From Watersipora subatra (taxonomy: Eukaryota > Bryozoa > Gymnolaemata > Cheilostomatida > Watersiporidae), in contig NC_088708.1 in NCBI RefSeq assembly GCF_963576615.1, positions 5,952,001 to 6,016,000 of the forward strand: a DNA stretch of 64,000 nt. The letters are read 5' to 3'. Numbering within the stretch: position 1 is the first letter of the stretch; every line of letters starts with the position of its first letter. The notes below the pieces were generated by a model. The model worked only from the letters and a program-made list of their open reading frames with translations, was not told the DNA's origin and ran no database searches. Positions 5,362-44,979 of this stretch are shown here, piece after piece. The position numbers and the translations under genes were made by a program.

Positions 5362-5447
5362 TGCATGCTGACTGTTTAAGATGAAATTGTTTCCTTAGCA
5401 TGGTATCTGTAGGCAGTCAAAGTCACTGTACACATATTCCACCTTAA

Positions 5448-6349
5448 AGGTTGACTTGCAAAAAAATTCACATTACAACTATTTGAAATCAAAAGATTTA
5501 CCATGTCTTACTCTGCTGTGTTGTAGGTGCAAAAAGTGTGATTACAAGCTTTTAAAAGCTCAAAAACGAACATTTAATCGCAGCCTCCTTGAAAGCGCCG
5601 TAGATTAGAATCAGTTTTTTAAAACGGCTCAAATGGGACGTAGTTGAACACGATGGCTTCTGTTTATACTTTCATGCAACTTCATTCGTCGAAATATTTT
5701 CACAAATATACTTCATGCATTCAATAAAACCATGTCTATTGTCCTTACGCGTTTATTTCATCATCATTGTAATGTTGTCACTTTGAGCACTGATATCTCA
5801 AAACTTATCGTAAAAATTTGTTTAATTTTTTAACCTAAGCTCGAAGGAATGCATATCATCCTCTGATAAACATGACGAGTCTGTTGGTCACCTGTGTTAG
5901 TCGAAAAATGCTGCAGAAATTATTCGCGCTGTTTGACAGAAAGTATGGGTCACATTATCAGACTACGGCTAGGCGATTCGACCAAGCTGAAACAAAACTG
6001 TAAAGTAGCGAGCATCTATATTTTATACTGGCTTTCCAGTAGAACCCGAAGTGTTTGGCATAAACTAATGCTACGAGACGTTTTATATTGAGCCTTTTAT
6101 TGGCCTTTCATTTCATGTGATAACATCACATGTCAAGACACTAACCATAATGTTTCAGTACGTCGTCGAAATAAAGAGATTCCAAACTACAGCGTTTTTT
6201 TTATGGTTGCGATTAACTGTTCGCTTTTGAGCTTTTAAGACCTTGTAATCATATTTCTACATATTTTGCATCTACAACACAGCAGAGTAAGAATGGTGAA
6301 CCTTTTGATACCAACTAACTGTAATGTGAATTTTGTTGCAAGTAAACCT
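5448..6349. mobile_element. TTAA-flanked DNA transposon with long terminal inverted repeats, copy 1
   Basis: The termini AGGTTGACTTGCAA and TTGCAAGTAAACCT are inverted repeats of about 130 bp (roughly 5448-5575 and 6222-6349). TTAA flanks both ends (5444-5447 and 6350-6353). A second copy starts at 28913. There is no transposase reading frame, so it was mobilised in trans. The TTAA target suggests a piggyBac or Kolobok source, not resolved further. Confidence 0.8.
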
Positions 6350-7203: not shown

Positions 7204-8690
7204 TGTATTCGGCAGCGCAGTAAATTTAAGGTCGGAGGCAGTGAGTCAAAGGATCCATATCAAGGCTCGTGGTATCAAAGGTCAAGAGTGTATAAACACA
7301 GAAGAAAGTAGTCAAGGTCAAGTGGATGGCAAGTTCCGTATTCGTGGATTAAAGGTAGGACAGGCGATGGTTGTGATTGTGCGAGTTTATACCCACGATT
7401 CACCAATTTTAACCCATGCATGGCAGTGACAACAGTTGGGTCACAAACTTTCCTCTAAAACGATTAGGTTGATACTTTGAAACATCCATAAAATTCACGG
7501 AATCCACAGTGGCCTTTAGCAACTATCCCGTGCACAATTCGGGTTTGCAGTAAACAAAACTCAAATAATCTAGCATTTTTTTCAATATCATAATAAATGA
7601 AACCAAATAAACTCACTACTATCTAGGATGTTCAGTGTATCTGGGCTGTATTTGGGCTGTCAGGAGCGATATTGTCATTCTCATCGATCAGTGCAACATT
7701 CTTGCCTTTTCTTGACAATATTCATGTTTCCTAGTCCTTGCATTCACTCTAGATGATCTTTGCTGATGTCTCACAAAAACTTACTGTTGTCTTTAAAAAA
7801 CTCAAAAAATTGCCAAGGCGTTAAGACACCTTTGGTCGGGCTACCCTCTCCCCCCCTTCAGGAGTTCGTTATTAGAGGCAGGCAATTCCTAGCGTCTTTG
7901 GATAATAACAAGACTATAAATTAAAGGTTGAAGAGGTCTGTCATATTTCATTACATGTAATCATGACTTTCACTCAAATATTCATCAGAGTTTACTATGA
8001 GATGAGCTGCCACGCTATCTGCAAACCCAGCATGAATACCTTTAACATATTATTTTTGTCTTATTGGCATTTTCAAATTGAGTAGAATTAATGCAGAGCT
8101 GATTTGCATAGTACTCTGATTATTCTATGATTATGTCTCATTAGAAATGAATTTGTGGTGATTTTCTATCTTTGCTGTTAGCAATGACACTATAATGGAT
8201 AAATTCCATTGCCAATTGTTTCATTACAGCTCAGTGATATATGGCTGGCAAATGCGTCAGTCTATATTGGTCAGTCTATATTGACGCTGATTCCTAGGCA
8301 CCTAATGGGTGTGCAGGGCTCACTCGCTCACCTTCTCACCTCTCCTACTTATGCTCGATACACGAATGCACTCTACTTTGCACCAAATTAAACTATCATT
8401 ATTCTGCTTACACCGTGTGCCACCGTATCTATGTCGAATAAGCTCCCTTCTTGAGCATGTAGATTAGTTGTCTTGCAGCCTGGCTGTGGATACACGGTGA
8501 CACTAACCGTAGATGATAGTACCGGCAGCCCAGCGATCTACCGAGTCTCCCCTCAGCACATAAACATAGACGTGAGTTCTGCCATCTTGTTGCCCTTGCA
8601 TAGCGTCTTTGAATGTTGCCGAAAGTATAGCGTAACATGATAAATACCATCTAAAAACCCTGTGAGATTATAGCTGCCCTAGTAAATATG

Positions 8691-8759
<69 letters not shown>

Positions 8760-11700
8760 TCACGTTTTAACCTCACAAATCTGCTTGTCAGTAGGAGAAA
8801 AAGTACTCGGGTGGCTGCTGGCTGTGAAAAGTTATTTGTAATTGTTATGACACATAGGTGGTTTGACCTTGGGAGTTATGGCTTATACCTTTATTTTGGT
8901 TGGGTATGCTAATGCAGTCAGGTTGTGAGGCTTGGTTAAGTTTGTGTCCATTTAGGCTTACAGCATTTGTAGCGCTATTATAGAGCATGCCATTTGGCCA
9001 GGGATTACTCTTTTCACGGATTAAGGTATGGCAGACGTGCCTGCATTTGAACAAGGAAACAAGCACGCGCTGGCGAGGGATTAGTGTTCACTTTGAGAGG
9101 GTAATAAACAGGATATCAGTAGGTAGTGTAGGACTTCTTGCAAGGAATGGCCTGGTACCAACACTTCTCAAATCTGATCATAGAGCATACTGACATCCAA
9201 GTCGAATAGGATGTGTTTTCTTATATTTTATTTAATTATTTTATTGCCGTGGTACCATAACGAATACAATACTTTAAAATCTGTGGTAGTTGTTGTGGAG
9301 ATCACCTCTATATGGTTTTGCTCTTTTTTCAATGAAGGGTCTATGGGCTTAAGAGTGGAGCCACTAACACACATTGGCCTAATGAGAGTGTCATACTCCT
9401 GCGTTCACTAAATGCCTTCCGAGCGTTGATTCTTAATGTTGATTCGTGGTGATGATATTTGCATAGTGGCACAATGTTTAGTAGATCATTGAACTCTGTT
9501 GATAATCTCAAATTAATGTAAATAGCCAATCTAAATTCATGTCCAAAGCATGTGTGTACCATAACATGTGTGGTGGTTGGGTATGGTGACGGTCCTGTCT
9601 TTACATTTCCACTTGGGAAATAATCCACTGGCATCTCACCTCTATTTTTCCTTCACCTTGAACTGTGGTTTATCAATTGCCAGTTTAGACACATTGTGCA
9701 CATTTGACGGCTTTCGTTCTAGCCAACTTGGAAAAAATTATCCTATGAACATTCTCTGTTATTGCTCATCAAATTAGTTATAGAGTGCATATCCTTTTCC
9801 ACCTTTTCTATACAAGACTTTTTCATTTAGGTAAAAGAAGTATTTTATATCATTTAAGTGGAAAGAAAGCAGTCACAGATATTAGTTGATGGATTTTGTT
9901 GCAGATGGAGGCAGCTGATGCTAATATTGGAAAATTTACTATAAGCGAGAGCCTGGCTGTCACAGATGTGGCGGTGTTTATTAACTGTTCTACACAGTAT
10001 CTATCGACACTCAAGGTATACCTCAGTATCTCTCTACACTCAATATATACCTCTGTATCTCTCTATACTCAAATTGTACTTCAGTATCTCTCTATAGTCA
10101 AGGTATACCTCAGTATCTCTCTATACTCAAGGTTTACCTCAGTGTCTCTCTATACTCAAGTTATACCTCAGTATCTCTCTACACTCAAGTTATACCTCAG
10201 TATCTCTCTATACTCAAGGTATACTTCAGTATCTCTCTATAGTCAAGGTATACCTCAGTATTTCTCTATACTCAAGTTATACCTCAGTATCTCTCTGGAC
10301 TTAAGGTGTACCTCAGTATCTCTCTATACTCAAGGTATACCTCAGTGTCTCTCTATATTCAAGGTATACTTCAGTATCTCTCCATACTCAAGTTATACCT
10401 CAGTATCTCTCTATACTCAAAGTATACCTCAGTATCTCTCTATACTCAAGGTATACCTCAGTATCTCTCTATACTTGAGGTATACCTCACTATCTCTCTA
10501 TACTCAAGGTATACCTCAGTATCTCTCTATACTCAAGATATACTTCAGTATTTGTCTATACTCAAGGTATACCTCAGTATCTCTCTATACTCAAGGTATA
10601 CCTCAGTTTCTCTCTATACTCAAGGTATACCTCAGTATCTCTCTATACTCAAGGTATACCTCAGTATCTCTCTATACTCAAGTTATACCTCAGTATCTCT
10701 CTATACTCACGGTATACCTCGGTATCTCTCTACACTCAAGATATACCTCAGTATCTCTCTATACTCAAGGTATACTTCAGTATCTCTCTATACTCAAGGT
10801 ATACCTCAGTATCTCTATACTCAAAGTATACCTCAGTATCTCTCTATACTCAAGGTATACCTCACTATCTCTCTATACTCAAGGTATATTTCAGTATCTC
10901 TCTATATTCAAGGTATACCTCAGTATCTCTCGATACTCAAGGTATACCTCAGTATCTCTCTATACTTAAGGTATACCTCAGTATCTCTCTATACTCAAGT
11001 TATACCTCAGTATCTCTCTATATTCAAGGTATACTTCAGCATCTCTCTATACTCAAGTTATACCTCAGTATCTCTCTATACTCAAGGTATACCTCAGTTT
11101 CTCTCTATACTCAAGGTATACCTCAGTATCTCTCTATACTCAAGGTATACCTCAGTATCTCTCTACACCCAAAGTATACCTCGGTATCTCTCTATACTCA
11201 AGGTATACTTCAGTATCTCTCTAGTCAAAGTATACCTCAGTATTTCTCTATACTCAAGGTATACTTCAGTATCTCTCTAGTCAAAGTATACCTCAGTATC
11301 TCTCTATACTCAAGGTATACCTCAGTTTCTTTCTATACTGAAGGTATACCTCAGTATCTCTCTATACTCAAGGTATACCTCAGTATCTCTCTATACTCAA
11401 GGTATACCTCAGTTTCTCTCTATACTCAAGGTATACCTCAGTATCTCTCTATATTCAAGGTATACCTCAGTATCTCTCTATACTCAAGTTATGCTCTCAG
11501 TATTTCCTACAGCTTGTCAGCATTCCGTGTCTGCATATGGTAGAACATCTACTCTGGCATATGCTACCCACATTTCCTCACACAGCTATATATATATATA
11601 TACATGTATATATAGATCCTGTGGATATTTTTGGCAAGTTCATTGAATTTATTTACTAGTTTATCTCCGAGTTCCCCGTCTTCTTTGGGCTGGGCGCCAA

Positions 11701-14700
11701 TATATTTTTTTGCTCTCAGGTGATAATCAGTAAGGAAGGATCTAGCGCCCCGCTACAGTCTCTCGGTGCATCCGAAAGTAAAGTTATTTTCCTTTCCAGC
11801 CTGCCTATGGATTCTTCGGTAAGGCTTTTACATGTCACGTATCAGCTCACCCTCCCGGTTTGTCTAGGACAACTATGGCAGATTTGCTCAGCTTTTTTAA
11901 AATACAAAATATAACATTTTTATTCAATATTGTAAGTGGTGGCTCATGAATTCACATGACCTTCACCATTGCATACCACGTATTAACTTATGATATAAAT
12001 GATGAGCTCTCAAGTTGTATAGTGCTGGAGTGTAATGAGTCTGTAGAGGAAGACATGTGCTGGAGACAGAAACTGGTACAGGACTCATTAGGGGCTTCGC
12101 TTGTCAGTCTGTCAGATGCCTCACACCCAGTGCTTAATCAGTTGGCACGATTCCCTATTTGTGTCTCCATCATCATGTAATACAATTCTCAAAAGCATAA
12201 TATTAGTTTCTATTCCTCTATTGTATAAAGATTTACATTAATTATCTCATAAAACGTTTTTAACCTATAAGCCCGTGTTTATAGTGATTCGGTGGCGAAT
12301 ATGCAGGACTTTAAAATTCATAGATGTACTAATGTGACAATAAAGTATTATCGGCCCTTTTCCAGGCAGGTGTCTTCTTTTTGATTGGACATGTTACCGA
12401 ACCATGTTAGAATTTTCTGGATGCATCAGAAATATCATAATGCAGGTATAATTTAACAATTATGTTAATTCAGTCGTCGGTGCTACTATAACTCAGTGAC
12501 CTTCATGTACAGAATAATAGTACTCTCTACCTTACTACTCTACCATAGTACTCTTTACCATAGTACTCTTTGCCATAGTACTCTCTACCATAGTACTCTT
12601 TACCATAGTACTCTATACCATACTACTCTCTACCATAATACTCTCTACCATAGTACTCTTTACCATAGTACATTCTGCCATAGTACTCTCTACCATAGTA
12701 CTCTCTACCATATTACTATCTACCATAGTACTCTTTACCATAGTACTCTCTACCATAGTACTCTCTACCATAGTACTCTTTACCATAGTACTGTTTGCCA
12801 TAGTACTCTCTACCATAGTACTCTTTACCATAATACTGTCTACCATAGTACTCTCTACCATAGTACTCTTTACCATAGTACTCTATACCATACTACTCTC
12901 TACCGTACTACTATCTGCCGTAGTACTCTCTGCCATAGTACTCTCTACCATAATACTGTCTACCATAGTACTATCTACCATGGTACTCTTTACCATACTA
13001 CTCTCTACCATGATACTCTCTACCATAGTACTCTCTACCATAGTACTCTTTACCATAGTACTGTTTGCCATAGTACTCTCTACCATAGTACTCTTTATCA
13101 TAATACTGTCTACCATAGTACTCTCTACCATAGTACTCTTTACCATAGTACTCTATACCATACTACTCTCTACCGTACTACTCTCTGCCGTAGTACTCTC
13201 TGCCATTGTACTCTCTACCATAATACTGTCTACCATGCTACTCTCTACCATAGTACTCTATACCATACTACTCTCTACTATAATACTCTCTACCATAGTA
13301 CTCTTTACCATAGTACTCTTTGCCATAGTACTCTCTATCATAGTACTCTTTACCATAGTACTCTATACCATACTACTCTCTACCATAATACTCTCTACCA
13401 TAGTACTCTCTACCATAGTACTCTCTACCATAGTGCTCTCCACCATAGTACTCTCTACCATAGTACTCTTTACCATAGTACTCTTTGCCATAGTGCTCTC
13501 TACCATAGTACTCTTTACCATAGTACTCTATACCATACTACTCTCTACCATAATACTCTCTACCATAGTACTCTCTACCATAGTACTCTTTACCATAGTA
13601 CATTCTGCCATAGTACTATCTACCATAGTACTCTCTACCTTATTACTATCTACCATAGTACTCTTTACCATAGTACTCTCTACCATAGTACTCTCTACCG
13701 TAGTACTCTCTACCATAGTACTCTCTACCGTAGTACTATCTACCATAGTACTCTTTACCATATTACTATCTACCATAGTACTCTTTACCATATTACTCTC
13801 TACCGTAGTACTCTCTACCGTAGTACTCTCTACCATAGTACTCTTTAAAGTAGTACTATCAGTAAAGTCAAGGACTGACAAGGCTTTGATGAATCAGCAG
13901 ATATAAACCGATTCAAGCACTGCTAACATCACATTTTGTACAATGAGTTCCTAAACTCTCTTTCTTTAAAAAGTATACAAACTAAGATGTGCACTAAACT
14001 TCTATTCATAGTGCAAGCATCAATTCGTTCACCCTTTCTACTCAAACAACCTAAATAAACTATATGCATGGATTAACTGTTCAATTTGCCCCTGTATACC
14101 TGTGCCTGCATACATTCAAACCTACGATATAAAATTTCGGGAAATATTAACTACATCACACGGTAATTTCCATCAGAAAAAGTTCGAAAAATTTTACAAC
14201 ATTACTGTTTCATTACTAAACAAGGAAAAGCTGTTAACAGAAAAATTTAAAAGTAATAAAAATATGTAAATTAAGTCAAATCAAATTATATCTAGTGTAA
14301 GTTGGAGTAATGACTTTCTATAACACGCTTTTTCACTGGAATTTGTCATTGCAAAGCTTGCACTTCCAATCTTGTCTCCCTAAGGTAAAGTACCAATAAA
14401 CACATTGCTTTAATGATTAACGCTCTATGCTGTTTTTTTTTAAATGTCATCAAAGTTTTACATTCAGTCTTATGCTTAAGTTTATATAATCTAGTTTTGC
14501 TAATGCTGTATTTAACCATTTATTGTTTATTTCAGTAGAAACCTTTAGACGTAAAATGGTCTGGCAAACATGTCTTTTACTAAGTTTGATGAATATCGTT
14601 GTAACTCTGTTAGCAAATAATATGAAGAACAATTAACATGTTCGTGTAATGTATTTCTTTTTTTCATGTTTAATTGTGACTGTTATTTGTTAAAACATTT

Positions 14701-17700
14701 TTTGTCTTTTACTCTTACCGCTATGCTTTGGATCTGTAAAGAGAGCTATTTTTGTGAAGAGGCAAAAGTTTCCCTAATCAGAATTTGTGTGAAGATGTTA
14801 CATTATTAGTAGCAGAAGCAATTACGAGTTTTTACTAAAAATGAATGTGGTTTAAAATGCAATAAACATTCAGTTTTCATATTTAGTTTGATCTGACATT
14901 ACATATCACTTTGCCAAAGAATGTTTTGTATAAATAGATTTAATCCTGCCAGCAAATGCCCTTTGCAAAAAATCTTTAAAAAGTTCACCTCTCATTAAAA
15001 GTTAGCTCCATGAGTTGCCAAAAGTAAAATTTCTTCAAGGCACGACTATATTATTTCTTGACAATCATTGCATTTCTCTCATGCTTTGTAGCTCCATGTG
15101 TAAATTGAAGTCTGTTCGTATCAACCCTACATAACTTACTACTGAACGCCTTAAAAAGAATAACTGTCATATGAAAATGCACGAGGTATACAGCTAGCAT
15201 TGGCGTGCTGTCTTTAGAGTGTCATGCGCTGCCTGTTAAGCAATGGTGGAATAAATTCATGCATCAAAATTAATTCTTGTTGCCTCATTTCTACTTGTAC
15301 CCTAATTTATTGAATTATATTTTATTACTTCTGCACTGACCTTGTCTCTAGTTTTCATGGCATCTCAAGTTGGTTTTGTATCTGAAATCATTGTAAATGA
15401 GGGCAAGGATCAAATCATTTTAGATATTAGCAATTAGCAATCGTGACGGTGTGCTGTACCGACAGCTGCCGGCAATGTAGGCCTCTAAGAGGTCATGAGA
15501 TGTGCCTCAATCTTGGTGCCTTTGGCTAACTGCGGATTAGCAGTTTACCTGTCAGACCAACACAGGGATGATCCATAGTCAGACCAGCCTGGCACGTAGC
15601 ACTTGTCTATTTTCTTTACTTCTTTACGCTGTTCCAAACTTTGCGTGCTAGGGGAGACAAAAGTCACCGTAAGCAGTTCGCCAGGAGATGACAAGCGATG
15701 TATTCAAATACGCATCACTCATGTAACTCTTCATCGCTGTTTGTCATTCTTTATCACCCAGTCTTTGCCTCCGACAGTCCAGCACACTACTTATAACTTC
15801 TGCCCGAGTATTTCATGTCATTAGGTAGTTTATTTTGGAAATTTTACTAGTTGAAGTGTGTATATTATCAGTAGCTTTATAATTGTTCCTGCTGACTACA
15901 TCGTACATCATGTAAAAAGACTTCTTCAGTTCTGAAGAAAATATTAAACTTTATCTACAGCACAATTTGTCATTCCTTAAAGGAAACACGTATCTGCAGA
16001 TCTACTCACTGTCATTACCCACTTTGCTGTCCACTCGATGCCGACTCTTGCGTAGGAAACATAAGCTAAGCAGCCTGTGGAGGCAGGAGTAGAGTGATTC
16101 ATCTTAAACCTGTTAATAGTGTGACATTTACTGCATCCATCATTCTATTGAATCCTAAATCATTTTTTATTCAAAATCGAGCTATTTGGAAACTGTTCAC
16201 CTATTGAGTGGTCAGTGTTGATAAGATCAATTTGGCTTTCACAGAATCACATTTATTTGCTATGACATCTTCAAATGTTGCGCGATACAATCTTCAACTT
16301 TTGTCGAACATGCGATGAGAATATGTGATGAGTTGATGATATACGTTTGATGAATATTTGATAGAATGAGAGGAAAGAGGCTCGTGCTAGAAACCTAGAA
16401 ACCTTTACAATAGCTGTAGTTTTATTGCAACTTTGATTGCCAAAGTTTTATCTAACCTGAGGTCTAGGTTAGAACCATGCAGTTACAATGTTTGCCGCGT
16501 GGGCTAGTGCCGACATAGAGTCTGCTATGTCAAGGACTTGTACTATCATCAAAAGTATCTCTCGTCTTTTGTGCTTATCTGCATGACTACCTACCTATAC
16601 ATACATATAGCTACATTCTGAGTATTTACACATAAATTCTTATATGTACATACTATATACACATGCCTGCATACACCCCTACACATGCCTGCATACACCC
16701 CTGCACATGCCTGCATACACCCCTGTAAATGCCTGCATACACCCCTACACATGCCTGCATACACCCCTACACATGCCTGCATACACCCCTACACATGCCT
16801 GCATACACCCCTACACATGCCTGCATATACCCCTGCAGATGCCTGCATACACCCCTGCACATATATGCTTACATATGCACAACTACCCAATCATATCCAC
16901 AGATTAGGATTGAGTAGTTATGCATACACCTACACATTCATACCTACATAAACATGTGTTCATCCTTACCTGCTCATACTTACATGTGCACCTTTCGTGT
17001 TACGTGACAAAGCTACAAGAGGCTCCATCTACAGCTATCTACATTTCTACTCGCCACATGATATGCTTAGCTGAATACTGTTGTTTATATTGGTGTACTT
17101 ACATAGACACTGAACTCACCAGTGTACTTACATAGACACTGAACTCACCAGTGTACTTACGTAGACACTGAACTCACCAGTGTACTTACGTAGACACTGA
17201 ACTCACCAGTGTACTTACGTAGACACTGAACTCACCAGTGTACTTACGTAGACACTGAACTCACCAGTGTACTTACGTAGACACTGAACTCACCAGTGTA
17301 CTTACATAGACACTGAACTCACCAGTGTACTTGCATAGACACTGAACTCACCAGTGTACTTACATAGACACTGAACTCACCAGTGTACTTACATAGACAC
17401 TGAACTCACCAGTGTACTTACATAGACACTGAACTCACCAGTGTACTTACATAGACACTGAACTCACCAGTGTACTTACATAGACACTGAACTCACCAGT
17501 GTACTTACATAGACACTGAACTCACCAGTGTACTTACATGGACACTGAACTCACCAGTGTACTTACATAGACACCGAACTCACCAGTGTACTTACATAGA
17601 CACCGAACTCACCAGTGTACTTACATAGACACCGAACTCACCAGTGTACTTACATAGACACCGAACTCACCAGTGTACTTACATAGACACTGAACTCACC

Positions 17701-20700
17701 AGTGTACTTACATAGACACCGAACTCACCAGTGTACTTACATAGACACCGAACTCACCAGTGTACTTACATAGACACCGAACTCACCAGTGTACTTACAT
17801 AGACACCGAACTCACCAGTGTACTTACATAGACACCGAACTCACCAGTGTACTTACATAGACACCGAACTCACCAGTGTACTTACATAGACACCGAACTC
17901 ACCAGTGTACTTACATAGACACCGAACTCACCAGTGTACTTGCATAGACACCGAACTCACCAGTGTACTTACATAGACACCGAACTCACCAGTGTACTTA
18001 CATAGACACCGAACTCACCAGTGTACTTACATAGACACCGAACTCACCAGTGTACTTACATAGACACCGAACTCACCAGTGTACTTACATAGACACCGAA
18101 CTCACCAGTGTACTTACATAGACACCGAACTCACCAGTGTACTTACATAGACACCGAACTCACCAGTGTACTTACATAGACACCGAACTCACCAGTGTAC
18201 TTACATAGACACCGAACTCACCAGTGTACTTACATAGACACCGAACTCACCAGTGTACTTACATAGACACCGAACTCACCAGTGTACTTACATAGACACC
18301 GAACTCACCAGTGTACTTACATAGACACCGAACTCACCAGTGTACTTACATAGACACCGAACTCACCAGTGTACTTACATAGACACCGAACTCACCAGTG
18401 TACTTACATAGACACCGAACTCACCAGTGTACTTACATAGACACCGAACTCACCAGTGTACTTACATAGACACCGAACTCACCAGTGTACTTACATAGAC
18501 ACCGAACTCACCAGTGTACTTACATAGACACCGAACTCACCAGTGTACTTACATAGACATCTAATATAACCTTTGACAATGTGTGTATTTTAAATTCCCT
18601 TGTACTTCCCTGTACTTATTCCCTATAAAATCCATCCTTATATTTAATTTACTTGCCCACTTCTTTCAATCCTTTTTTTCTCTCTTCCTCCCCCTCTTCC
18701 CTTCCCTCCTCCCCCCACTAGGATTTAGCTGTGTACGAAATTTAAACATTGCTACAAATCGAACTGAAAATCCATTAAAAACTGCAGCCTTTTTTAAAGC
18801 TTTTTTTACTGCAGCCTTGTCGTATGAATCAGTCAAGCACATACAGAATCTAATAATAGCCTGATGTTCTGATATTACAATTCTACAAAAGTCTCTTATC
18901 TCTTAAGTTTTTGCCCTTCTCACAGGCCGAGTCAAATGAGATTAGTGATAACTAATGACTGGTTATACAAGGCTGGAGGAGGCAGCTGTTAGAAATATTC
19001 CAGTTTGGATTTGCTGGAATTAATATCGTCTTAGCTCGTGTCCCTCCCTTTTGCTGTGACCTTCACTTTATACTAACTACAATCTGTACAGAAACTTAAT
19101 AAAATATTTATTAGGTAATAAAAAAGCTTCAAGGAGAAGTACAAACACAACTCGTCTTCCTTTGGTAAATTCCTATGCTTCAACCAACTCAATAGTTTGC
19201 TTCCATTAGCCAGTTCAGAGCAGATAGTAGAAAAATTGGCTGTTGCAGAAATACAAAGTGATGCTGGAGTCATCGCTGTCTAAAAAGTTGTACGAGTATG
19301 AGACGAGTGAATATCTCATGACAGCTGATGAACCTGCCAAAGCCCTTGCTATGTCATTCAATCCCAAGGTAATAATAGTCTCTCTAGTCATACTCATATG
19401 CTTATTGAAACAAATTGATGAGGTAGTAGGTAGTATGACTAGCTTGGAGGTGAATACCCGCAGCTGATGTTTGCAAGCAATGGCAGGCTATATGACAGGG
19501 AAACACCACTTACTGTCATCGAAACATTCTTGAAGAGCATTTACAGCAGCAGAATTCTTGATCATCTCCTGATGGTGAAAATGGATGGCACTAAAATTGA
19601 ATCAAATCAACTTCCAGATGTCATATTTTAGCTGCCCACAAACACAGTTGCTTGGCTTAAAATGGTTTCACAAACTGCCCAGCAGTAGAGGATTTGTTAT
19701 TATGGAAGAATTTTACCGATGAAAAATAGAACATAGTGTGTAGGTCTTCCAGACACTAAGGTTATCATATCATGGTTTCATTAGGTGTCAAAGTTACAAA
19801 TGCTCATCTGATGGCGACAAAAACAAACAAGAAATCTTTATCATTTAGCCGGTCAATCTTTTTCTTGTGTGTTTAACATGCATCAGTGCTAGTTGTGTTG
19901 GTTATGTTTGCCATAGACTGGTGGATTGTGAAAAATATAATGTAAGGGTTTACCGGGTCGGCCTCTATTTCAGGGTTGCTACAAGTTCTAATCCTTTAAC
20001 TGTTGTTCTTACAGGTTCGCAGCAATTTTGAGTACGAGGTTAAAGAGAGCAGTTTGCTCGCCTTGCTCATCGTGGTTCTCAGCACGCTACTTCTTGTCAA
20101 CAAGCAGGCCTGCTTTGACATGTTTTCTCAGGTTTGTATCCTTGCCTCCAGAGCACTCCTCTACCGCACTTCATTTGCATAGTGTAACGATATAGCTCCC
20201 AATACAACATTTTTTGTCCTTTGACTTCAGCCCTTATCTCATAAATGATTTAATTTTATGTAACAAAATTGATATAAATCTGTTATAATTGTGACACAAC
20301 TGTTAATTAACCCATTTTAAAACAGTTGTTAGCCACGAGAGCTCTACCAGTATATGGTCAAAGAAAATGTACCCCATTTATCATCAACTTTGCGACGCCA
20401 GTCATCTCATTTAAACAGCTCAAAGACTTAATCAAATGAGTTTCATTAAAGTTCATGGCATTTTGACTCTTTCGATTAAATTGGGATCTTTCACAAAAAA
20501 TATTTTGCTCACCATTCTTTAAAAAAACTAACCAGCTTCTATAGCAGTTATTGTTGCTATTATAAGCTGTTCAGGTTTTTTGACAGCCTTTTTTTTCGTT
20601 ACGTTTCTAAACGTAGAGCTTGGTCATAACAACTGTCTCTAAATAATTTATAATGTAGTTACCACTGTTAATTAGTACTACATTGCTGAAGTTGTCATGA

Positions 20701-21866: not shown

Positions 21867-23783
21867 TTAGAAGGCTTCCATCACGAGACTCTCCATGATG
21901 TCGTTAAACATGGCATCATTACTGTAGTAGCTGTCTGGACTGCTGCTTTCATAGCTTGTTATAGAGTTTGAACGGCACCGTGTCTGCGGAATATGGTTAG
22001 AGTTGGAGTTGTTTTGGTTGTATAAAGCATTGTGAGAACTGCCATAGGCTGCAACTGCTGGTGCTGGGCCAGTTTTTGGCATGCCTTTTGATTTGTTTAT
22101 AATGTTGTCAATGTTTTCCATTATATAACCAGCACTGGGTTTCTCTTCTGTTACCATACTTATCGCTTCGCCATTCACTAAATCTGTCATGAAATGGTGA
22201 CTGTCCTGGTAGACCTGTGCAGCAGTCGTGTGGTTAGCTTGCATAAGGTTTGGCGTATATATGGGTGGCACAGTCGGTGCTGCCATTGGGGACTGCACAA
22301 TCTGTTGTTCGACAGACCTGCTTGAAAAACCAACCAGCATCGGCTGTGGCCATTGCTTTTCGGGGTTTGCCATAGATGTTGCCACATGGTAAGCAGGTGA
22401 AGGGTGTTGGTGACAGGCCTGTGGAGAATCTAAACCCTTCGGCCAACCTTGAGGCAATGTTTGGTTCCAGTTGAAGCTTGCGTGGTTCTGGTGGTAGGAG
22501 GGGCTAGGTGTGACTGGTGAGTAGAATGGACTGGCTTGACTACTGGTTGGGCTAGGTTGGTAGCCTGGGGTCATGACATGCTGTGTTGGGTTTACCTGAG
22601 CTGCAGAGTTTCTTTGAGCTTGGCTATTGGTCGAGCGACGGTAATATGGTTGAACTTCGTAGGATTTCAGAATCTCTCGCGAGTTAAACTTGTAGGTGTA
22701 TTTTCTCTTGGGTACCTTACGAAGAATTTTTTTCTCATAGTAATGGCGAAGCGATCTTGAAAGCTTCTCATAAGTCATGTTTGTCCTATTCCTTTTTTCC
22801 CCCCACATATCAGCTAGTTTTGTAGGGTCTCTTATTCTGAACATTCCTTTCTGGTCTTCCCACGTTGCCACATTAGATTTATTCGAGTCCAGCAATATGT
22901 CGAAAAGAAACATCCACAGATGGCAGTGCGTCGTATCTGCAAGAGTAGACCGCACATTCATTTGCCCGCAATCGTATATATTTTAGTATGTGTACACTCC
23001 ACATTTAACATTGAGCAAGGCAAATTAAGCATCTACATATGAGCTCACCTTTCAGGATCTTCTTCTTGAGAATGTTGAAGGCATCCACCTCAGACATTTT
23101 GTCATAAGCACTCGATACCGTCTCCACTGAAAAAATAGGTTACAGTTAGCATTAAGTCAAATTAAATGTTGTTAGTTTGGCATATACATTATAAGCTGCA
23201 TACAGATCTGTAGTGCAATATGGTAATGATTCTGGGAATATTCGCTGCTATGTTTCGCTCTGTTTCACGAGTGATAAGTGTGTACTTCATCAGTGACAAT
23301 ATTCATGTATCATTGAAAAGCTCTTTGGCTGTTTAACTCTAATATCTCAACTTCCTCGTTGTTGAATCCGTGCCATGCGCCAATTTAAAAATAGAGCCCA
23401 CACTGCATAATTGAAATGTGATTCAGCAATAGAGTTTGCCAAATGTTTGATTTCAGCTAGAACACTAACTCACCTGCTTTCTGCTCCTGGACAGTTCTCA
23501 TAGAGTTTGGCGGCTTTGCTTGTAGCTGTTCGCAGGATAGTCTCAGCATCTCAAGGCTGCTCTTCCCTTGCTTATCTGTAAGGATAAAATTCCATGTAAT
23601 TATAACAAATCGATTCTGAATCAAACAGCGAACTGATGAGAAGAGTGCGCGAAGAAACAATTGAACATTTCTTGACCTACCTGAGGGATTGCTCAGCTTG
23701 TCGTTATTATAAAACTGCTCCATGATTTGTTTTTGTGAAGCCATTTGGTCAACAAAATGTTCTGGATATAGTCCACTGTCCAT
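21867..23783 (-). CDS. ETS-domain transcription factor
   Basis: Four exons in transcript order: 23806-23681 (coding from the ATG at 23783), 23575-23474, 23126-23049 and 22936-21867. All three introns are phase 1, and the joined frame is 450 residues. The ETS DNA-binding domain is residues 101-180: it opens LWMFLFDILL, has the WEDQKGMFRI and LADMWGEKR strands, the recognition helix MTYEKLSRSLRHYY with both base-contacting arginines, and ends YTYKF. By eye it is nearest the ESE (ELF3/EHF) or ETV6 groups; the subfamily is not fixed. No Pointed/SAM domain is visible. The long C-terminal part is rich in Ser, Pro, Gln and Asn, typical of an activation or repression region. The start is chosen because CCAATGG is the first ATG of the exon and the upstream sequence lacks a convincing coding exon; a noncoding leader exon may end at 24434 (donor gtaagg). 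It should act in the nucleus at GGAA-core sites. Confidence 0.88.
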
Positions 23784-24922: not shown

Positions 24923-27900
24923 TCAATGGCGGTACAAATCATTGAACTTTATAGGGATCTGTTTGCCAGGAGTAAGAAGAGCTCGAGTGAGAGGAGTCCA
25001 AACAGGTTTACTCTTGTCAAGGGTTAAATTGAACTGAGTGAGCACCTGTAACATTAAGTATTCGCAGTAAGTACCTGTTCTTTAGCTCCTGGCTATCAAA
25101 TTGGACACAAATAACTCATGTGCTTTCCTCTCAAAAGATATGCTTGGATTCCTTGCATAAAAGAGTATGGGCATTGACCTAGCCATCAGATAAATCAAAC
25201 ATAATGGCTTGATTAAATCAAAGTCTACAGGTAACTACCAGCTTCATGTTGAATTTTATTACAAAACTACTCAAATTGTGATCTCAGATGTTACCTTGAT
25301 GATGCAGAGGGCTATTTCTAGTTCAGCTATGCGCCTACCTGCAAAATTACAACAAAGTTTGGCTAGTCACATAACTATGACAATGTACTGATCAGTGTTA
25401 TAGGGTTTGGTATGAGTCTGCCAAATGATTACAAAGTAGTCTTAGTAGTCAAACAAAGTAGATTACAAAGTAGTCAAAATACTCTTACCAATGCATGCTC
25501 GCGTTCCAAAGCCAAATGGAATTGAAACGAGTTTCCTTTCTGGTGAGTCAGTTGTCGTTGTATTCCTATCAAATCGCTCTGGAATAAATTCATCGGGATT
25601 TTGCCAAACGTCTGGATCTCGGCAGATGCAGTAGTGCCAAAACATAACTTTGTCCTGCGGTACAAACATATTGTTTGGTATGCTATGTGTAGACGAGAGT
25701 AATGATTAAATGAATGAAAATAATAGCTGTAGTGGAGTTACTCTCCCATCGTTTAATGGAGGAACAACTCCTAGATTTCTCACCTCGGCCTTAAACTGTA
25801 TGCCTTTTTGGGAAACAAAGTCTTTACGGATAGTTCTGCCATTAATAAATAAGATAGGATACAGCCGCAGTGTTTCTTTGATGCACATATTGAGATATTT
25901 TAGGTTTTTCACAACATGAATGTCAAGATGATCCGAGTGCTCGAGGATTTCAGCTCTTAACTTTTCTTGTTTCTCGGGATGTGATGCGAGAAGGTAGAGC
26001 ATGAATCCAAGAGTATTGGATGACTGCAACATCAATAATCTGAGAGTAAAATAGTAAGCAGTAAGAAATAATATTAACAGTGAAAATAAAATAACATGAA
26101 ACAGCTACGTATCACAATAATTAATTTGGAAAGCTATGAATTACAGAGATAAGACTGACCGTATCAACACCACCAAACAGAAACTCCATGAGCATATATT
26201 CTGTGTCCAGTCTAGATAGTGCCGAATTTGCCAAGAGAGATGAAGCCATTGGGGTGAAATCGAGGCTAGAGCTATCTAGCCTGTCCATCATTTTTTCCAA
26301 AAAGTACTGAGCTGGAAGACAAATAGCAATAAATATTTGGCTAATATGGCTCATCTTCTCATAAGTCGGATGGTAACAATGGAAGTTGTTTACCTAAGTG
26401 AAACATGGAGTAGACAACTTGTACTGACAATAGTTTGATGAGAAGGTAACTTCTAATGGTGCGTTTACACTGGCCGACACCGACTTCGATTAGGTGCCAA
26501 TACCCCGACTCGGACAGGTACCTCCGACATTTCACGTATGGGTGCCGACACCGACTCCCCCTTTACATTGCAACAATCAAACGATTTTTGTCGGTACCAA
26601 CAGCCAATCACAGCGTTTCGCCGTTCTGACCTTCACCCGACCACGCGAAGACGAGTACACATAAAAATCAACGCGCTTGATGTGGAAAATTATATACTAG
26701 TACTACACTACTACTACTGCTCCTACTACTACCGCTAGAAGCAACTACTGAATGCCAAACAATGAATGAATTATGAGGCAATGAAAATCCGAGCAAAGAA
26801 CTGTACGTACAGTTCTTTCGTCCGAGTAATTACAATAAATAAAATGAATAATGAAGAAGATTGAATGGTGAATGTATATTTGTGGTAGTAGTAGTGTGAT
26901 GGACGCCGGGCCAACACTTTACACTTCTTGTAATTATTTGTTTGTATATATTTTATATGTCTGTAAAGATTTTATTATATGGGTTGTCCTTTTTATTCCC
27001 TTTTTATTGTTGGCCTTGTTACTCGTTATGCTATCAATTGTCGTCGTTTATGTTGTCATATCAACGCACTAGCGGGCCTAATTATTGGCCATTTAAACAT
27101 TGTTAGCCGGTGTTCTCACTCGGTCCCGTTAGCCGGAACGGGCAATTTTATTGTATATAAGGGAGCAACGCTTACTTAGTAGACAGAGCAAATGGCCGTC
27201 CGCTCCTCGGCTAGTGAATTTCCTTCGCTAATAAAACATTGAATGAAATCACACGCAATTTATTTCTGTATGACATAATCTAGATCGTGCCAAGTAAGGG
27301 CCAGCAAATTCCTTTACAGTAGTACTAGAACTATTAGTAGTACTAGTAGTAGTCGTACAACTGGCTATTCACTTTTAATTAATTTAAATTAAAGAAAAAA
27401 CTTGATTTTTTGGTACTCTCGCGTTCACATCGTTGCTAGCCATGCTGGTTCACTATTAAAAAAAGAACGAGGGAAAGTTTAATGACAGTCTCCTAGCCTC
27501 TCATTAAACCTAGCCTTTTCGTTTCATAAACTTAGCACTGTCATTAAAGCCTAGGCTCATTTAATCAGAGGCTCCTAGCTTCTGATTGGCTGATGAGCAT
27601 CCGATTTGTCGGTGCAACCGGGCACTGCTGGGTTTCTCCGACACCGACTTTCAGATCGGTGCCGACACCGATCTTTCTGTTCACACCTACCGACACCGAC
27701 TCATCAAATTTGTCTGTGCACGACAAAATCGGTGACAAAATCGGCCAGTGTAAACGCACCATAAGCATTCACACTTGCAGCAAAACTGATTAGAGTGACC
27801 CATGCGCGACTTACTCCAGAGTCTGCAGGGGCGACAAGTGTAAGCGTGCTCTAGCGTACTAGTAACCTAGTGAGATTGTCTTCGCTACTTTGCCAATACC

Positions 27901-30900
27901 ACTACTGCTCAAATTTTCAGCAATAATCTGACCATGATCTATTCGTCTGGTCAAAGTTCGTTCATCACATTAACCACGGTTCAGAACTTTACTGTAAACT
28001 GTTTAAAAAAATAATAATACCAGTACCCTTGCAGTCTTTTTCTCACCATAGCTATAGCTAGTAGTGGTGCATTGCCAACTTAGGATAATGAGAACTTTGT
28101 AACATTTGTGAAATTTTTATGATCAAATGCAGATAATAGTAATGCAAAGTTTCCAAAGAGAAAGCGGCAAGCAGATATAGCACTTGATCATATGTTAAAT
28201 ATTGAAGGTGTACAAAACTAAGTTTGCACGTATGCGTGTCATTTCATATACATGTGTATTTCATATACATGTGTATTTCATATACATGTGTATTTCATAT
28301 ACATGTGTATTTCATATACATGTGTATTTCATATACATGTGTATTTCAAGTGTTGATAATTATTTCAAGAGTTGATATTATTAATCTTTTCTCTACAACG
28401 GAGGGATCTAATCGACTCATAGAAGTCAATGCAAACCGCTTATCAGTCGACAATGATGCTTTACCTAAAAAGCTTTCAGAGGTTTTTTCCATACAAATGG
28501 ATTTTTATCTTCTGCAACGTGCAAGACCGCAGAAGGTAATCTTGAGTAGTCTCTACCCTTTGTTTTTAAAGTCTGGCTGTGCCGTAACATTTCCCTTTAT
28601 TATCTCTTTATGACTTTTTGCTTACAGTGCAATCAAATAAACTAGATGTAGATGAATATCCCCACAGCCCTTGTAAAGATCATCTTCTCGGCTCTTAAGA
28701 ATGTATTTTTCTTGCGGTTCATGAATATCCTTCAATCCAGGAATGCTTATCAGCCAAAAAAATGTATTCCTCATAGAAAGCCTTTGTTGGTACAGCATAA
28801 ATTATATTAAGCATTCCAAGGAGTCTCTAAAATGCTTATTAATCATTAAATTGGTAGTGTTTTCTGTTTGTAAAAAGTGCCTTCTGATTAAAGCATTTAC
28901 TGTTTTTGTTAAAGGTTGACTTGCAAAAAATTTCACATTACAGTTATTTGGTACCAAAAGATTCACTGTGTCTTACTCTACTGCGTTGTATGTGCAAAAT
29001 ATGTGGAAATGTGATTACAAGCTCTTAAAAGCTCAAAAACAAACAGGTAATCGCCGCCATCATAAATACGCCATAGATTGGAATCCCTTTCCAAAACAGC
29101 TCAAATGGGAAGTAGTTGAACACGATGGCTTCCATATACACTTTCATGCAACCTCATTCGTCGGAATATTTTCACAAATATCCTTCATGCATTCAATAAG
29201 ACCATGTCTATTGTCCCTACGCGTATATTTCATCCTCATTGTAATGCTGTCACTTTGAGCACTGATCTAAAAACCTACTGTGAAAAACATGGTTTAATTT
29301 TTGAACCTTAGCTCGAAGGATTGCATATCATCCTTTAATAAACGTGACAAGCCTGCTGGTCACCTGTGATAGTCGAAAAATGCTGTAGAAATTGTTCGCG
29401 CTATTTGGCAGGAAGTATAAGTCACATGATCAGATTACGACTAGAAGATTAGACCAAGCTGAAACGAAACTGCAAAGTGGCGAGCATCCATATTCGATAC
29501 GGGCTTTCCGGTAGAACCCGAAGTGTTTGTCATTAACTAGTGCTATGAGACGTTTTATATTGAGCCTTTTATTGCCATTTAATTTAACGTGATAACATCA
29601 CGTGTCAAAACAATAAAAACAATGTTTAAGTACGTCGTCGAAATAAAGATATTCCAAACTACGGAATTTTTGCTATGGCAGCGATTAACTGTTCATTTTT
29701 AAGCTTTTAAGAGCTTGTAATCACATAGCAGTTATAAAGCTGGGTGCATATCTAAAGATCTTAAGTTTTGAAAGTCTCCTACCTGGCAGGAGTTTTCAAT
29801 TCAACATTTGCCCTTGCAGGGTGAATTTTACTCACTATAGCGGTAATCTGTCTGCAGCTAGAAAAGTCTTATTTCTTGTCATCTGTATATTTCTTCAAAA
29901 CCATTCTTCTAAAGGCCTTAAAAAGCGACATGACCAACTGGCTAGTAAAAAATTATTTCAAATTGTAGACTTTTCTTTACAAGCAGTGATGTCATAATTG
30001 TTTGAGAGATAACATGGATACTGCAAAACCTCTAATTCAACACTTATTTGAATGCAGCTTTGAAAAATAGAGCATCACTTAAACGCTGCCTCCATTTGAC
30101 TGCCACTTTGATTTTTTTGTAATAAGTAATGACCCATAATAGCAAGTGATCAGTAGACAAGCGTCCACAAAAACATGCTAATACAATTCATTCTTTTAAT
30201 GTTTCTGTTCGTATCAAAGTCCGTTCTCCAACTTCAAAGCTCTCCAGGTTTTTTCGTTAAAACTTTGAAAGCAATACCACAAAATAATTAACAACTGCAT
30301 CATGCTAATAGTAGTTCCTTGTCTACGCAGTCTTGATACTTTGATGTATATGAAAAACAATTTACATTTACGATGGTATGTGACTAATTTTAGGCTAAAA
30401 TTTGTGCTTAGCACAAATTCGGCTAAAAGGTTATCATTATTTGTGTGAAATGCAACACGTGAAAGTTTTGCTCTGCTAAAAACAATGTTTGGACGCTAAT
30501 ATTGACTAGTTCGACATTGTAGATAGAGTTGAAGTCAGGAAACATTGTGGAAGGTATTAAACAGCCAGAAGATGTTCATTCCATCGAAAGCAACAATCAG
30601 AACGCAACTGGCTGAGCAAACGACGCAAATACATGTATACTTGTTTCAAAAATGTTAATTGTTTCTCCGTGTATTATAAGTGTCATGCGATTATAACACT
30701 TGTTATTAAATATATATTTATAGCATTTGATAGATTATTATTATATAACTTATAAATTCAGATTTATAGAATTATATTTAATAGCATCCTTGCGTTTCTT
30801 TCAACTCGGCTTACAATAAAAGCTAGTTTCGACTGTAAACTGCAGCAAACATATCAATGAGTGCAATGAGCTGTTATGCAACACGATTAAATATAGTTAT

Positions 30901-42900: not shown

Positions 42901-44979
42901 CTTAAGGACTACAAGCCATTTATAACCACAAGTTTTACAGCTTTTGCTAGAATTTATGAAGTTTCCTCACATGACTGACCACTGCTTGGCAGAGTCAACA
43001 TTGACTAGCAACGGTTGACCTGGTAATGAACTGAGCGAATCAAAATAATTCTGGGTACATTTGCACTTTCGAGATTTTGTACTCCAGTTGGACTTGTGTG
43101 TACTTGTCTGAGAGGCAGCTGTGAAAGCTGCTGAACAGCACATGACAACAATCATAGATCCTCATCGAATCATGTTCTAAAAGGAAAGAGCCTACTCTAG
43201 GTGTATTCAAAGCTTACAAGCCAGTGTCAAACCATTGACGACTGCTAGCGGTTCAACAGTTTACAATGGTCCCTCTATATACAGGCGACTCTATTTACAA
43301 CAAAATTATGATACAAGATGCCTTTTGACGTAAGATATGGCTTGAGGTACACTCATCTCAACAAACATCACGTAAATAAATGTATAAAAAATAGTCCAAT
43401 AGAAATATAGTTTTTGATTCTATGTTTTTGTGAACTGTCTGTCACTCTTCCTCACTTCTGTGCTGCTTGCCCTTATCACTATTCTTCCATCACCGAGCAT
43501 AAACCTCCATTAACCATGGCGATTTTCTCCCAAGCATGTGTGTTGTTGCTGTTGTTTAGGAAATTAATTAACTAGCAATAAACCGATTGCTTTGATGCTA
43601 TAGGGTATAACCATAATTCTCTAGGAGCTTATAACACACTGTAGACAAAACACTTTACAAATCAGTTAGTGCATATAATAGGCTCTTATTATATTTAATT
43701 AATATTTTCAGATTAATCTTATTATCGTTTTTATCTTCAATTCTGATTTGAGTGGATGTTAATAATCCGAAAGATACCATTTGAAATGCCGTATTATTTT
43801 ATCTAACCTCACTCAAAAAGCTAGCAAAGCTGTGACAACACAGAGAAACCAACGGAAACAAATAAAATCACACACGGGAAAACTTATCGCTCATGAAGGG
43901 AAACAAACATCCGGACCTATGAATGATTCTATGAAGGGCTTTAATATGTTTGCTCCTTGTTTTGGATATAGATATGTTATATAGTTGTTCAGAATTGAGT
44001 TGGATGATGTTGGCAGGCCAGAAATGGATTAAATGGTTTATGAGAAAAATGCATTAGCTATTCAAGATGTTCTAGATAGGACCACAATGCAAGATCAAAT
44101 TGATATCACACGGATAGGCATGCTATGGCAATGCACTGGCTTGAAACACAATCTACATTGTGATCTGAATCACTAAAGATTCTTGTGAATGACATCTACA
44201 GAATGCTGCTCTTAAAAATTTGAGGTTACTCAAGAGCTTCCTGTATGGTTGACTGACCAGCAGAGTCACACCCGAACAGTGACAGCCAGGAGATGGTATT
44301 TGAAGCTCATCGATATATGTGCATAATAAACCAGCACCAAAGGACTGTATGTAAGTATATATACCACAGTCAGATGGGACAAACTTACGACGTGAGTAGG
44401 CCGCCGGAGACATTATGCTTGTTTAGATATTCTACCCAAGAGAGAGGGGGCTCTCTGAAGGGAACAGGATCTTGCTGCCTCAAAACCTCTTCCATAAGAT
44501 TAGCATCGGCGACTGCAAAGGCTCTTGAGCCAAATGTGAGCCGAATAACCTTTCCATATTTATCCACCAAGTCTTTCTGCAAGACGAAGTTTATCAGTAT
44601 AATACTGTTTGTACATGCAATCACTGACAAAAGTATCAACTCTCATAAAGTTGAGTGACGTGGATAGCGAAAAGCCAAATACTTTGGCACTATACAACAC
44701 AGAGAAGCTCAACATCCTAACTATTCGATCTATGGCAAAACTTACAGTCACGATATGCAGCCGATGCCTATTGCTCCCCGCGAATACGTGCATTGATCCT
44801 ATCTTTGGCAGAGCAACCGGGCCTGGTAGGTCTTCCCATTGGGTGACTCGAGATAGTAGGCTATGGGTAGCATAGATATGCCGATTATTTGCACGGTGTG
44901 CGCTAGAAGATATCCTCGAAAACAGTTTGCGTGCACAGATCGTGTGAGCAGCAGACATATCGCAAGCCGTGTGCATCAC
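24923..44979 (-). CDS. Mitochondrial-clan cytochrome P450, nine exons
   Basis: Exons in transcript order: 44979-44746, 44576-44389, 33295-33105, 31446-31243, 26311-26160, 26023-25784, 25654-25489, 25338-25295 and 25045-24923. All have GT-AG borders and matching phases and join to exactly 513 residues, a normal length. An N-terminal Arg/Ser/His-rich stretch (residues about 15-45) fits a mitochondrial presequence, followed by the proline hinge LPGP. Diagnostic motifs: I-helix FGGVDTS (residues 318-324), K-helix ETLR (373-376), PERF (428-431) and heme loop [10 protein letters not shown] (450-459) with Cys457 as heme ligand. The heme loop is followed by [10 protein letters not shown], the basic patch through which mitochondrial P450s bind adrenodoxin. 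Expected role: a monooxygenase of the mitochondrial inner membrane acting on a steroid, sterol or xenobiotic; the substrate cannot be read from sequence. No key residue is missing. The gene spans 20 kb, with an 11-kb intron. Confidence 0.93.
26457..27761. mobile_element. PIF/Harbinger-like non-autonomous element
   Basis: Terminal inverted repeats TGGTGCGTTTACACTGGCCG and CGGCCAGTGTAAACGCACCA are flanked by the 3-bp duplication TAA (26454-26456 and 27762-27764), the TWA target typical of Harbinger. Subterminal regions repeat ccgacaccga on both sides. No transposase is visible. A solo LTR sits in its middle. Location: P450 intron 26312-31242. Confidence 0.8.
26895..27318 (+). mobile_element. 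Solo LTR of a Gypsy-like retrotransposon, nested in the Harbinger element
   Basis: The 424-bp unit begins TGTGATGG and ends TTTACA, with a 4-bp direct repeat GTAG on both sides (26891-26894 and 27319-27322). It has a TATA box (tgtatataaggg, about 27152) followed by a likely transcription start and AATAAA near 27229, in LTR order. No internal genes are present, so it is the fossil left after LTR-LTR recombination. It is younger than the Harbinger element around it. Confidence 0.6.
28237..28350. repeat. 17-bp minisatellite (tttcatatacatgtgta), about 6.5 copies
   Basis: Nearly identical units in a P450 intron. The short plus-strand frame across it is a by-product. Confidence 0.9.
28913..29727. 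mobile_element. TTAA-flanked DNA transposon, copy 2, lacking its far end
   Basis: Aligns along its length with 5448-6240, starting AGGTTGACTTGCAA after TTAA (28909-28912). Similarity stops at about 29727 within the right inverted repeat, so the outer part of that end is missing. The two copies differ by many substitutions and small indels, so both insertions are old. Confidence 0.75.
30019..30905. mobile_element. Pogo-like element copy, right end not found
   Basis: Similar to the left and central parts of the element at 46289-47909, including cattgtggaaggtatta and a shared run around gaagatgttcattc. The left end ctgcaaaacctctaattc resembles the pogo-type terminus. No matching right end was found and no intact frame exists. 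Confidence 0.6.
32037..32993. mobile_element. TA-flanked MITE (Tc1/mariner or pogo type)
   Basis: Terminal inverted repeats CAGTAGGTGCTCCTACAACG and CGTTATAGGAGCATCTACTG, with TA on both sides (32035-32036 and 32994-32995). There is no transposase. An 11-bp minisatellite lies inside. Location: P450 intron 31447-33104. Confidence 0.8.
32236..32325. repeat. 11-bp minisatellite (taccgtaactg), 8 copies
   Basis: Perfect head-to-tail copies inside the TA-flanked MITE, so the array expanded after that element formed. Confidence 0.9.
33671..34469. mobile_element. TA-flanked pogo-type MITE, copy 1
   Basis: Ends CAGTCAAACATGGATAACTC and GAGTTATCCATGTTTGACTG, flanked by TA (33669-33670 and 34470-34471). 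The inner part contains a conserved block (cacttgagattggtttgtt, then gccaggacg) shared with copies 2 and 3 and with the foldback at 55.5 kb. Non-autonomous; largest P450 intron. Confidence 0.85.
36274..36360 (+). other. Candidate exon, function unknown
   Basis: An open 29-codon block between a pyrimidine-rich acceptor (ttttttctgagcatcag) and the donor ATGGAG|gtacat, both phase 0. The peptide is highly charged ([20 protein letters not shown]), which is unusual for random AT-rich DNA and fits a coiled coil. It lies antisense inside the P450 intron 33296-44388. No neighbouring exon was found, so it could be chance or a remnant. Confidence 0.25.
37685..38496. mobile_element. TA-flanked pogo-type MITE, copy 2 (inverted relative to copies 1 and 3)
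   Basis: Ends CAGTGAAACTCGGATAAATC and GAGTTATCCGTGTTTCACTG, with TA at 37683-37684 and 38497-38498. The internal order is the reverse complement of copies 1 and 3. Confidence 0.85.
39435..40511. mobile_element. hAT-like element carrying a nested MITE
   Basis: The ends TAGGGATGGCA and TGCAACCCTA are imperfect inverted repeats. A perfect 8-bp duplication CTCTGAAA lies directly outside both (39427-39434 and 40512-40519), the hallmark of hAT insertion. Without the nested copy the element is about 365 bp. It has no transposase. Confidence 0.8.
39655..40364. mobile_element. TA-flanked pogo-type MITE, copy 3, nested in the hAT-like element
   Basis: Ends CAGGCAATCTTGGATAACTC and GAGTTATCCAAGTTTGAGTG with TA at 39653-39654 and 40365-40366. 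It includes an internal tandem duplication of about 55 bp near 40083-40192 (catccaagaactactaaaag twice). It is younger than the hAT-like element. Confidence 0.82.
40520..44388. other. Rest of the 11-kb P450 intron
   Basis: Apart from the poly-G tract nothing is defined. A minus-strand frame at 42967-43155 starts with a signal-peptide-like stretch but has no supporting splice sites or family resemblance. Confidence 0.4.
41460..41484. repeat. Poly-G tract, 25 bases
   Basis: An uninterrupted run of G followed by cgggg. It could form a G-quadruplex, with C-rich antisense in the P450 transcript, and its length is likely unstable or partly a sequencing effect. Confidence 0.9.

Follow-up and report, generated by a model that had tools for sequence, protein, structure and literature searches.

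A 29-bp minisatellite that begins within the end of a NOMO coding exon and repeats its 5' splice site

Within the 64,000-nt stretch of DNA analysed here (the window), which includes the 3' portion of a plus-strand NOMO gene with introns in phase 0, a 29-bp tandem array begins inside a coding exon and continues deep into the following intron. The first unit (unit 0, 9995-10023) consists of the last 21 bases of the exon at 9905-10015 and the first 8 bases of the intron, and thus contains the true donor, AAG|GTATAC at 10015|10016; it is followed by 51 wholly intronic units (10024-11497), many of which carry a donor signal of their own. The explanation that we favour, with a probability of roughly three in four (0.74), is that the array belongs to the 'mirage' type of minisatellite, which spans an exon-intron boundary, and that splicing still proceeds mainly from the first donor. 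As the identity and position of the units suggest, the 29-bp segment spanning the exon end would have been tandemly duplicated and the copies would have expanded to 51 through ordinary minisatellite turnover, with most of the splicing presumably still carried by the first donor.

Any such explanation requires that 9905-10015 be a coding exon, as the preliminary description had proposed, and homology bears this out. The exon is 111 nt long, starts and ends in phase 0 (3' end CAG TAT CTA TCG ACA CTC AAG), has NOMO2 and Pfam matches and belongs to a series of plus-strand NOMO exons that includes one ending at 7354 (placed by its end only), those at 8479-8571 and 19249-19368 (both phase 0, from the sequence and the NOMO2 alignment) and the next exon downstream, at 11720-11818 (99 nt, phase 0, starting with GTGATAATCAGTA, from the NOMO2 alignment). 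Because it aligns to human NOMO2 when spliced with its neighbours, 9905-10015 is, as judged by sequence comparison, a real NOMO exon. A provisional spliced model in which the junctions were slightly off produced a match to NOMO2 with an E-value of 1.8e-10 and to the Pfam family NOMO_12th with an E-value of 4.4e-16 (59.8 bits, cut-off 27); with corrected junctions, the translation of the joined exons (190 residues) matched NOMO2 with an E-value of 1.9e-13 over residues 25-189, in an alignment of 165 residues that contains one 3-residue and one 1-residue gap. Since the NOMO2 homology crosses the junction ('..cstqylstlkviisk' in the window, '..tsseylptlwvklyk' in NOMO2) and the E-value improved once the junctions were corrected, the exon boundaries appear credible. 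The 70 residues encoded by the exons 9905-10015 and 11720-11818 alone reach 26.9 bits in NOMO_12th, just below the cut-off of 27, and a PDB search with these residues did not find NOMO, the one match being a chance hit with an E-value of 7.5.

The array itself is continuous. Tandem Repeats Finder reports a single 29-bp array at 9995-11503 (52.2 copies, 89% matches), which wrap-around alignment resolves into 52 full units and a 12-base remnant (11498-11509), ending at 11509; the rest of the intron (11510-11719) contains no recognizable unit remnants, the best local score being reached by 480 of 500 shuffles. Unit 0 shares 26 of its 29 bases with the consensus, including 18 of the 21 exonic ones, whereas across the 62,270 remaining positions on the plus strand of the window the best match is 18/29, and 14/21 for the exonic part, which argues that the identity between the exon end and the array is not due to chance. 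Since the 29 bases upstream of 9995 match the consensus at just 12 positions, the array can be taken to start at about 9995. The composition of the first unit that had been described from the sequence, and the start of the next unit exactly 29 bases on (at 10024), were thus both recovered by alignment. Across the 51 further units there are 73 changed cells, a mean of 73/51 = 1.4 per unit; differences at non-donor sites average 1.3 in the first six units and 1.0 in the rest, and unit 51 shows 2 differences from the consensus plus an insertion. That the whole pattern is an artefact, produced by a wrong exon end or by an assembly error that extended a short repeat into the exon, seems highly improbable, given that the boundaries are backed by NOMO2 homology across the junction and that the copies hold many different variants, unlike the product of mechanical duplication. 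Among the 11 picked arrays of at least 100 bp in the window, this is the only one to overlap an exon, in a comparison with eight exon intervals of which three are ORF-based or approximate and lie outside NOMO. Exact matches to the array sequence numbered 0 in a viral and 0 in a prokaryote collection, as expected for an animal intron.

The direction of the transfer can be read from the coding frame. In this frame, the exon end encodes QYLSTLK and the consensus unit QYLSILK, and of the three nucleotide differences between them, two leave the amino acid unchanged and the third exchanges Thr and Ile. Because Thr is present at the aligned place in NOMO2 and also in 4 of the 51 copies, Ile is, from these comparisons, the derived state that arose in the array. 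Given that the end of the exon consists of conserved coding sequence of NOMO, from which the consensus differs either synonymously or by a change from Thr, the NOMO2 state, to Ile, the polarity in which the exon seeded the array, and not the reverse, is supported. The proposal that a coding-exon 5' splice site lies inside the repeated unit and was amplified from the exon into the array is upheld at this level.

The fate of the repeated donors is the next issue. Donor signals persist in a large part of the 51 further copies (GT in 39, AGGT in 33, the exact 9-mer AAG|GTATAC in 29 and the exact 13-mer ACTCAAG|GTATAC in 21), so there are indeed dozens of near-identical donors in a row; the accompanying statement that most units carry the donor context stands for GT and for the 9-mer and fails for the 13-mer. 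The most variable of the 29 unit positions is donor +1, changed in 12 of 51 copies, followed by C28 (9), C16 (8) and donor -1 (7). The two nearest decoys, units 1 and 2 (10024-10081), have 3 and 5 differences from the consensus and no GT in the donor register, and it is not until unit 3 (10082-10110) that a decoy has its donor intact, following 10102. GT is missing from 4 of the 6 copies closest to the exon and from 8 of the 45 others (Fisher p 0.022, with the cut chosen post hoc), and a rank test for loss nearer the exon yields p 0.049 for GT; as the same test yields p 0.30 for AGGT, selective loss of decoys near the exon is left as a hint.

Could the array then function as a dial of splice length, such that several of its donors are used and NOMO isoforms arise with insertions in steps of 29 residues, perhaps varying between individuals along with the length of the array? 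The retention of GT in 39 copies and the presence in 29 of the identical 9-mer, for which the predicted U1 pairing is the same as for the true donor, would be compatible with such a function. So would the fact that the reading frame of the exon 9905-10015 stays open into the array until a stop at 10967, and that for 8 of the 39 GT decoys (k=3,12,15,21,24,27,28,31) it is open all the way through the exon 19249-19368. However, the frame is shifted by 27 of the 39 GT decoys, every one of which leads to a stop, and another 4, though in frame by length, read past the stop at 10967. Furthermore, GT is kept irrespective of frame, with 12, 13 and 14 GT-bearing copies among the 17 in each class (k mod 3 = 0, 1 and 2, respectively), which rules out frame-selective donor retention, and the position that varies most is donor +1, the opposite of conservation. 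The insertions would be expected to split a folded domain that is transthyretin-like, to judge by its Pfam name. Taken with these observations, the dial appears quite unlikely.

A property of the unit that bears on how the spare donors might be tolerated is its predicted capacity to fold. The donor lies within the word AGGTATACCT, a perfect palindrome identical to its reverse complement, of which the array has 25 occurrences and the remainder of the window's plus strand none. Together with a second pairing arm, AGTAT/ATACT around a CTCTCT loop, it would allow neighbouring units to form a hairpin of 10+5 bp (AGGTATACCT plus AGTAT-CTCTCT-ATACT), and 43 of the 51 neighbouring unit pairs could make 9 or all 10 of the outer pairs, with G-U allowed. 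Arrays of six consensus copies are predicted to fold better than those of 998/1000 dinucleotide-shuffled and 1000/1000 mononucleotide-shuffled units, and the folding z values are -9.9 and -12.4 in two interior stretches and -7.9 for 11352-11470, vs -1.3 for the exon with units 0-5. Among nine other arrays of the window compared with shuffles in the same manner, six do not stand out, two do so mildly (12/200 and 13/200) and one, a 17-bp array at 28236-28348 (GTGTATTTCATATACAT) whose unit is also self-complementary, stands out as strongly as the NOMO array (2/200).

Across four folding settings, none of the 33 decoys with intact AGGT is predicted to be more open than the true donor; among all 51 copies, the GT-less ones included, 12-14 are, chiefly those with broken donors. 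The predicted openness of the true donor is 0.007-0.055, a span bracketed by the values for four other NOMO donors in the window (0.003-0.37), and its U1 pairing, at -5.7 kcal/mol, is the weakest among the five. When U1 pairing is multiplied by openness, the true donor comes first in 4/4 settings with 15-49% of the weight, compared with 3.0% from U1 pairing alone, and its share falls to 3-12% when the pairing arm of the decoys is changed in silico. The decay of units 1 and 2 can be rejected as the cause of the openness of the true donor, which changes little when these units are repaired in silico to the consensus. Nevertheless, because the true donor is predicted to be only 0.7-5.5% open, 12-14 copies are more open and the decoys retain 51-85% of the weight even with folding in the model, structure alone would be insufficient to secure the first donor, and exon definition along with the order of transcription would have to supply the rest. 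Selection on the hairpins is unsupported in that variation is greater at paired positions (3.4 and 2.7 variant units per position) than in the loop (1.2); since the paired positions are not conserved, we read the folding as a by-product that would make the array tolerable and not as a selected device.

Under the mirage explanation, we would expect the first donor to be dominant, and three circumstances may assist it: the exon that it defines has a normal size and 3' splice site, whereas decoys lengthen the exon by 87 to 1,444 nt; the two nearest copies lack GT; and the neighbouring decoy donors are computed to lie in hairpins, where U1 would reach them less easily. In classic work on duplicated donors, the downstream copy is often favoured, which counts against this expectation. 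The likeliest leak would be low-level use of the in-frame decoy of unit 3 at +87 nt, which would insert 29 residues. The locus amounts to a natural competition experiment, in which one true 5' splice site precedes 39 competitors with GT, 29 of them having an identical 9-mer, and the pattern of its transcripts would test how a first donor is chosen, through exon definition, the order of transcription or RNA structure.

Minisatellites at exon-intron boundaries are already known as a kind, to which the NOMO case adds a large number of copies, a self-pairing donor and a footprint of the word CAGTA discussed below. The 31-bp VNTR of the human CBS gene reportedly has a donor in each unit. Among the closest counterparts are the 'mirages' of amphioxus (cephalochordates), characterized as minisatellite-like tandem repeats of exon-intron boundaries, many copies of which contain AG/GT, with length instability, with boundary copies that escape homogenisation, with RT-PCR results suggesting that splicing is undisturbed, and with a proposed model of intron gain (PMC3087553); a further article describes mirages in additional lancelet genes (PMC3902484). 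As in these repeats, the NOMO unit spans the exon-intron boundary and many, although not all, copies keep the signals (AGGT in 33/51, GT in 39/51). The dimensions are different, with 6 and 3 units of 150-160 bp in BflGb6, 157 bp in BflGb9 and 10-72 bp in Adh3 (PMC3087553), against 51 further, self-folding copies of 29 bp in NOMO, and it was in the amphioxus genes that normal splicing was tested. The CBS VNTR is placed on the boundary of exon 13 and intron 13 in two reports (PMC1395315, PMC5188458), one of which terms it a non-coding sequence and associates higher repeat number with lower CBS activity (PMC5188458). It is likewise a short-unit repeat on an exon-intron boundary, but the NOMO array differs from it in gene and in unit length (29 bp). 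In paralogues from human segmental duplications, internal tandem repeats at exon-intron boundaries alter splicing and can create new introns (PMC2812944); these are recent paralogues with RNA support, unlike the one NOMO copy described here. No report of the NOMO array was found in the literature covered by searches that were not aimed at NOMO itself, and nothing to the point on hairpin-masked repeated donors was present among the 10 matches listed of 63.

The precedents for intron gain raise the question of whether the intron itself was born from the array. According to this hypothesis, the exons 9905-10015 and 11720-11818 were once a single exon, and slippage within it, between two CAGTA words at a spacing of 29 bases, duplicated a coding segment of 29 bp that bore AGGT. 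Several copies would then have made a spliceable intron, as in the Rogers model, and this intron would subsequently have grown and acquired 210 bp of other sequence, the array being the relic. This is a claim on origin and is compatible with the mirage explanation, which concerns function. The Rogers model posits intron gain through tandem duplication of an AGGT segment, and fission yeasts furnish a precedent in introns formed from repeated copies of a 24-bp exonic segment with AGGT (PMC4974935), next to the amphioxus intron-gain model (PMC3087553). The NOMO intron resembles a gained intron of this type in that the duplicated coding segment contains AGGT and could serve as a 5' splice site, with AAG|GT both in the unit and in the ligated junction, AAG|GTG, which is a proto-splice site.

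Several features of the flanking exons point in the same direction. The joined 210 nt of exon contain exactly two CAGTA words, at 9995 and 11728, which after removal of the intron are 29 nt apart, the length of the unit, which itself starts with CAGTA; the expected frequency of CAGTA is 0.0013 per site. The homology between array and exons begins at the first of these words and ends after the second. The word TCAGTA is found at +8..+13 of 5 out of 7,494 GT sites. The exon start GTGATAATCAGTA also resembles the intron start GTATACCTCAGTA, with an anchored gapped score of 14, compared with -6, -6 and 2 for three other exon starts; a score of 14 is reached at 41 of 7,494 GT and 2 of 415 AGGT sites. 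On the other hand, this pattern was noticed post hoc, after the alignment had been seen, and without gaps the two starts match at 8/13, as do 413 of the 7,494 GT sites (5.5%). The middle of the octamer differs, GTGATAAT vs GTATACCT, although the 21 exonic bases are well kept. With respect to the 3' half of a Rogers-type intron, only the exon start is similar: the 21 bases that precede the 3' splice site are like the unit in composition only (738/3,000 shuffles are as good, and 1,307/3,000 in the comparison with the consensus), the wider stretch 11690-11740 scores as 46/500 shuffles do, and the absence of unit remnants from 11510-11719 likewise speaks against the hypothesis. The likeness of the exon start and the spacing of the CAGTA words hint at, but do not prove, a birth of the intron through tandem duplication, a possibility to which we lean less than to its opposite. 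A chain of events that joins this origin to the predicted folding is more doubtful still: a CAGTA microhomology (5 bp, 29 bp apart) in one NOMO exon would have seeded an AGGT repeat, the copies of which became an intron, and self-folding would have masked the spare donors such that the first was used and the newborn intron, being tolerated, could grow to 51 copies. Should the NOMO genes of relatives lack this intron, it would represent a rare case in which the source sequence and the slippage footprint of an intron are still readable.

The window contains other repeats and genes. The 11 picked arrays make up 6,582 bases, or 10.3% of its length. In the next NOMO intron, there is a second 29-bp array (17093-18559; 50.6 copies, 99% matches) of different sequence, and because its copies are nearly identical, their comparison suggests that it grew recently; the same intron harbours a 15-bp array of about 89 copies (12517-13844). 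On the minus strand, an open frame at 21870-22982 encodes an Ets domain (Pfam E 9.5e-28), and pieces of cytochrome P450 are found at 25466-26104 and 44388-44642 (Pfam E 1.3e-16 and 1.2e-16), with a third match (0.0015) below the cut-off; perhaps these pieces are parts of one long gene. Finally, two similar open-frame stretches on the plus strand, at 5399-5783 and 28920-29255, are probably copies of a dispersed repeat.
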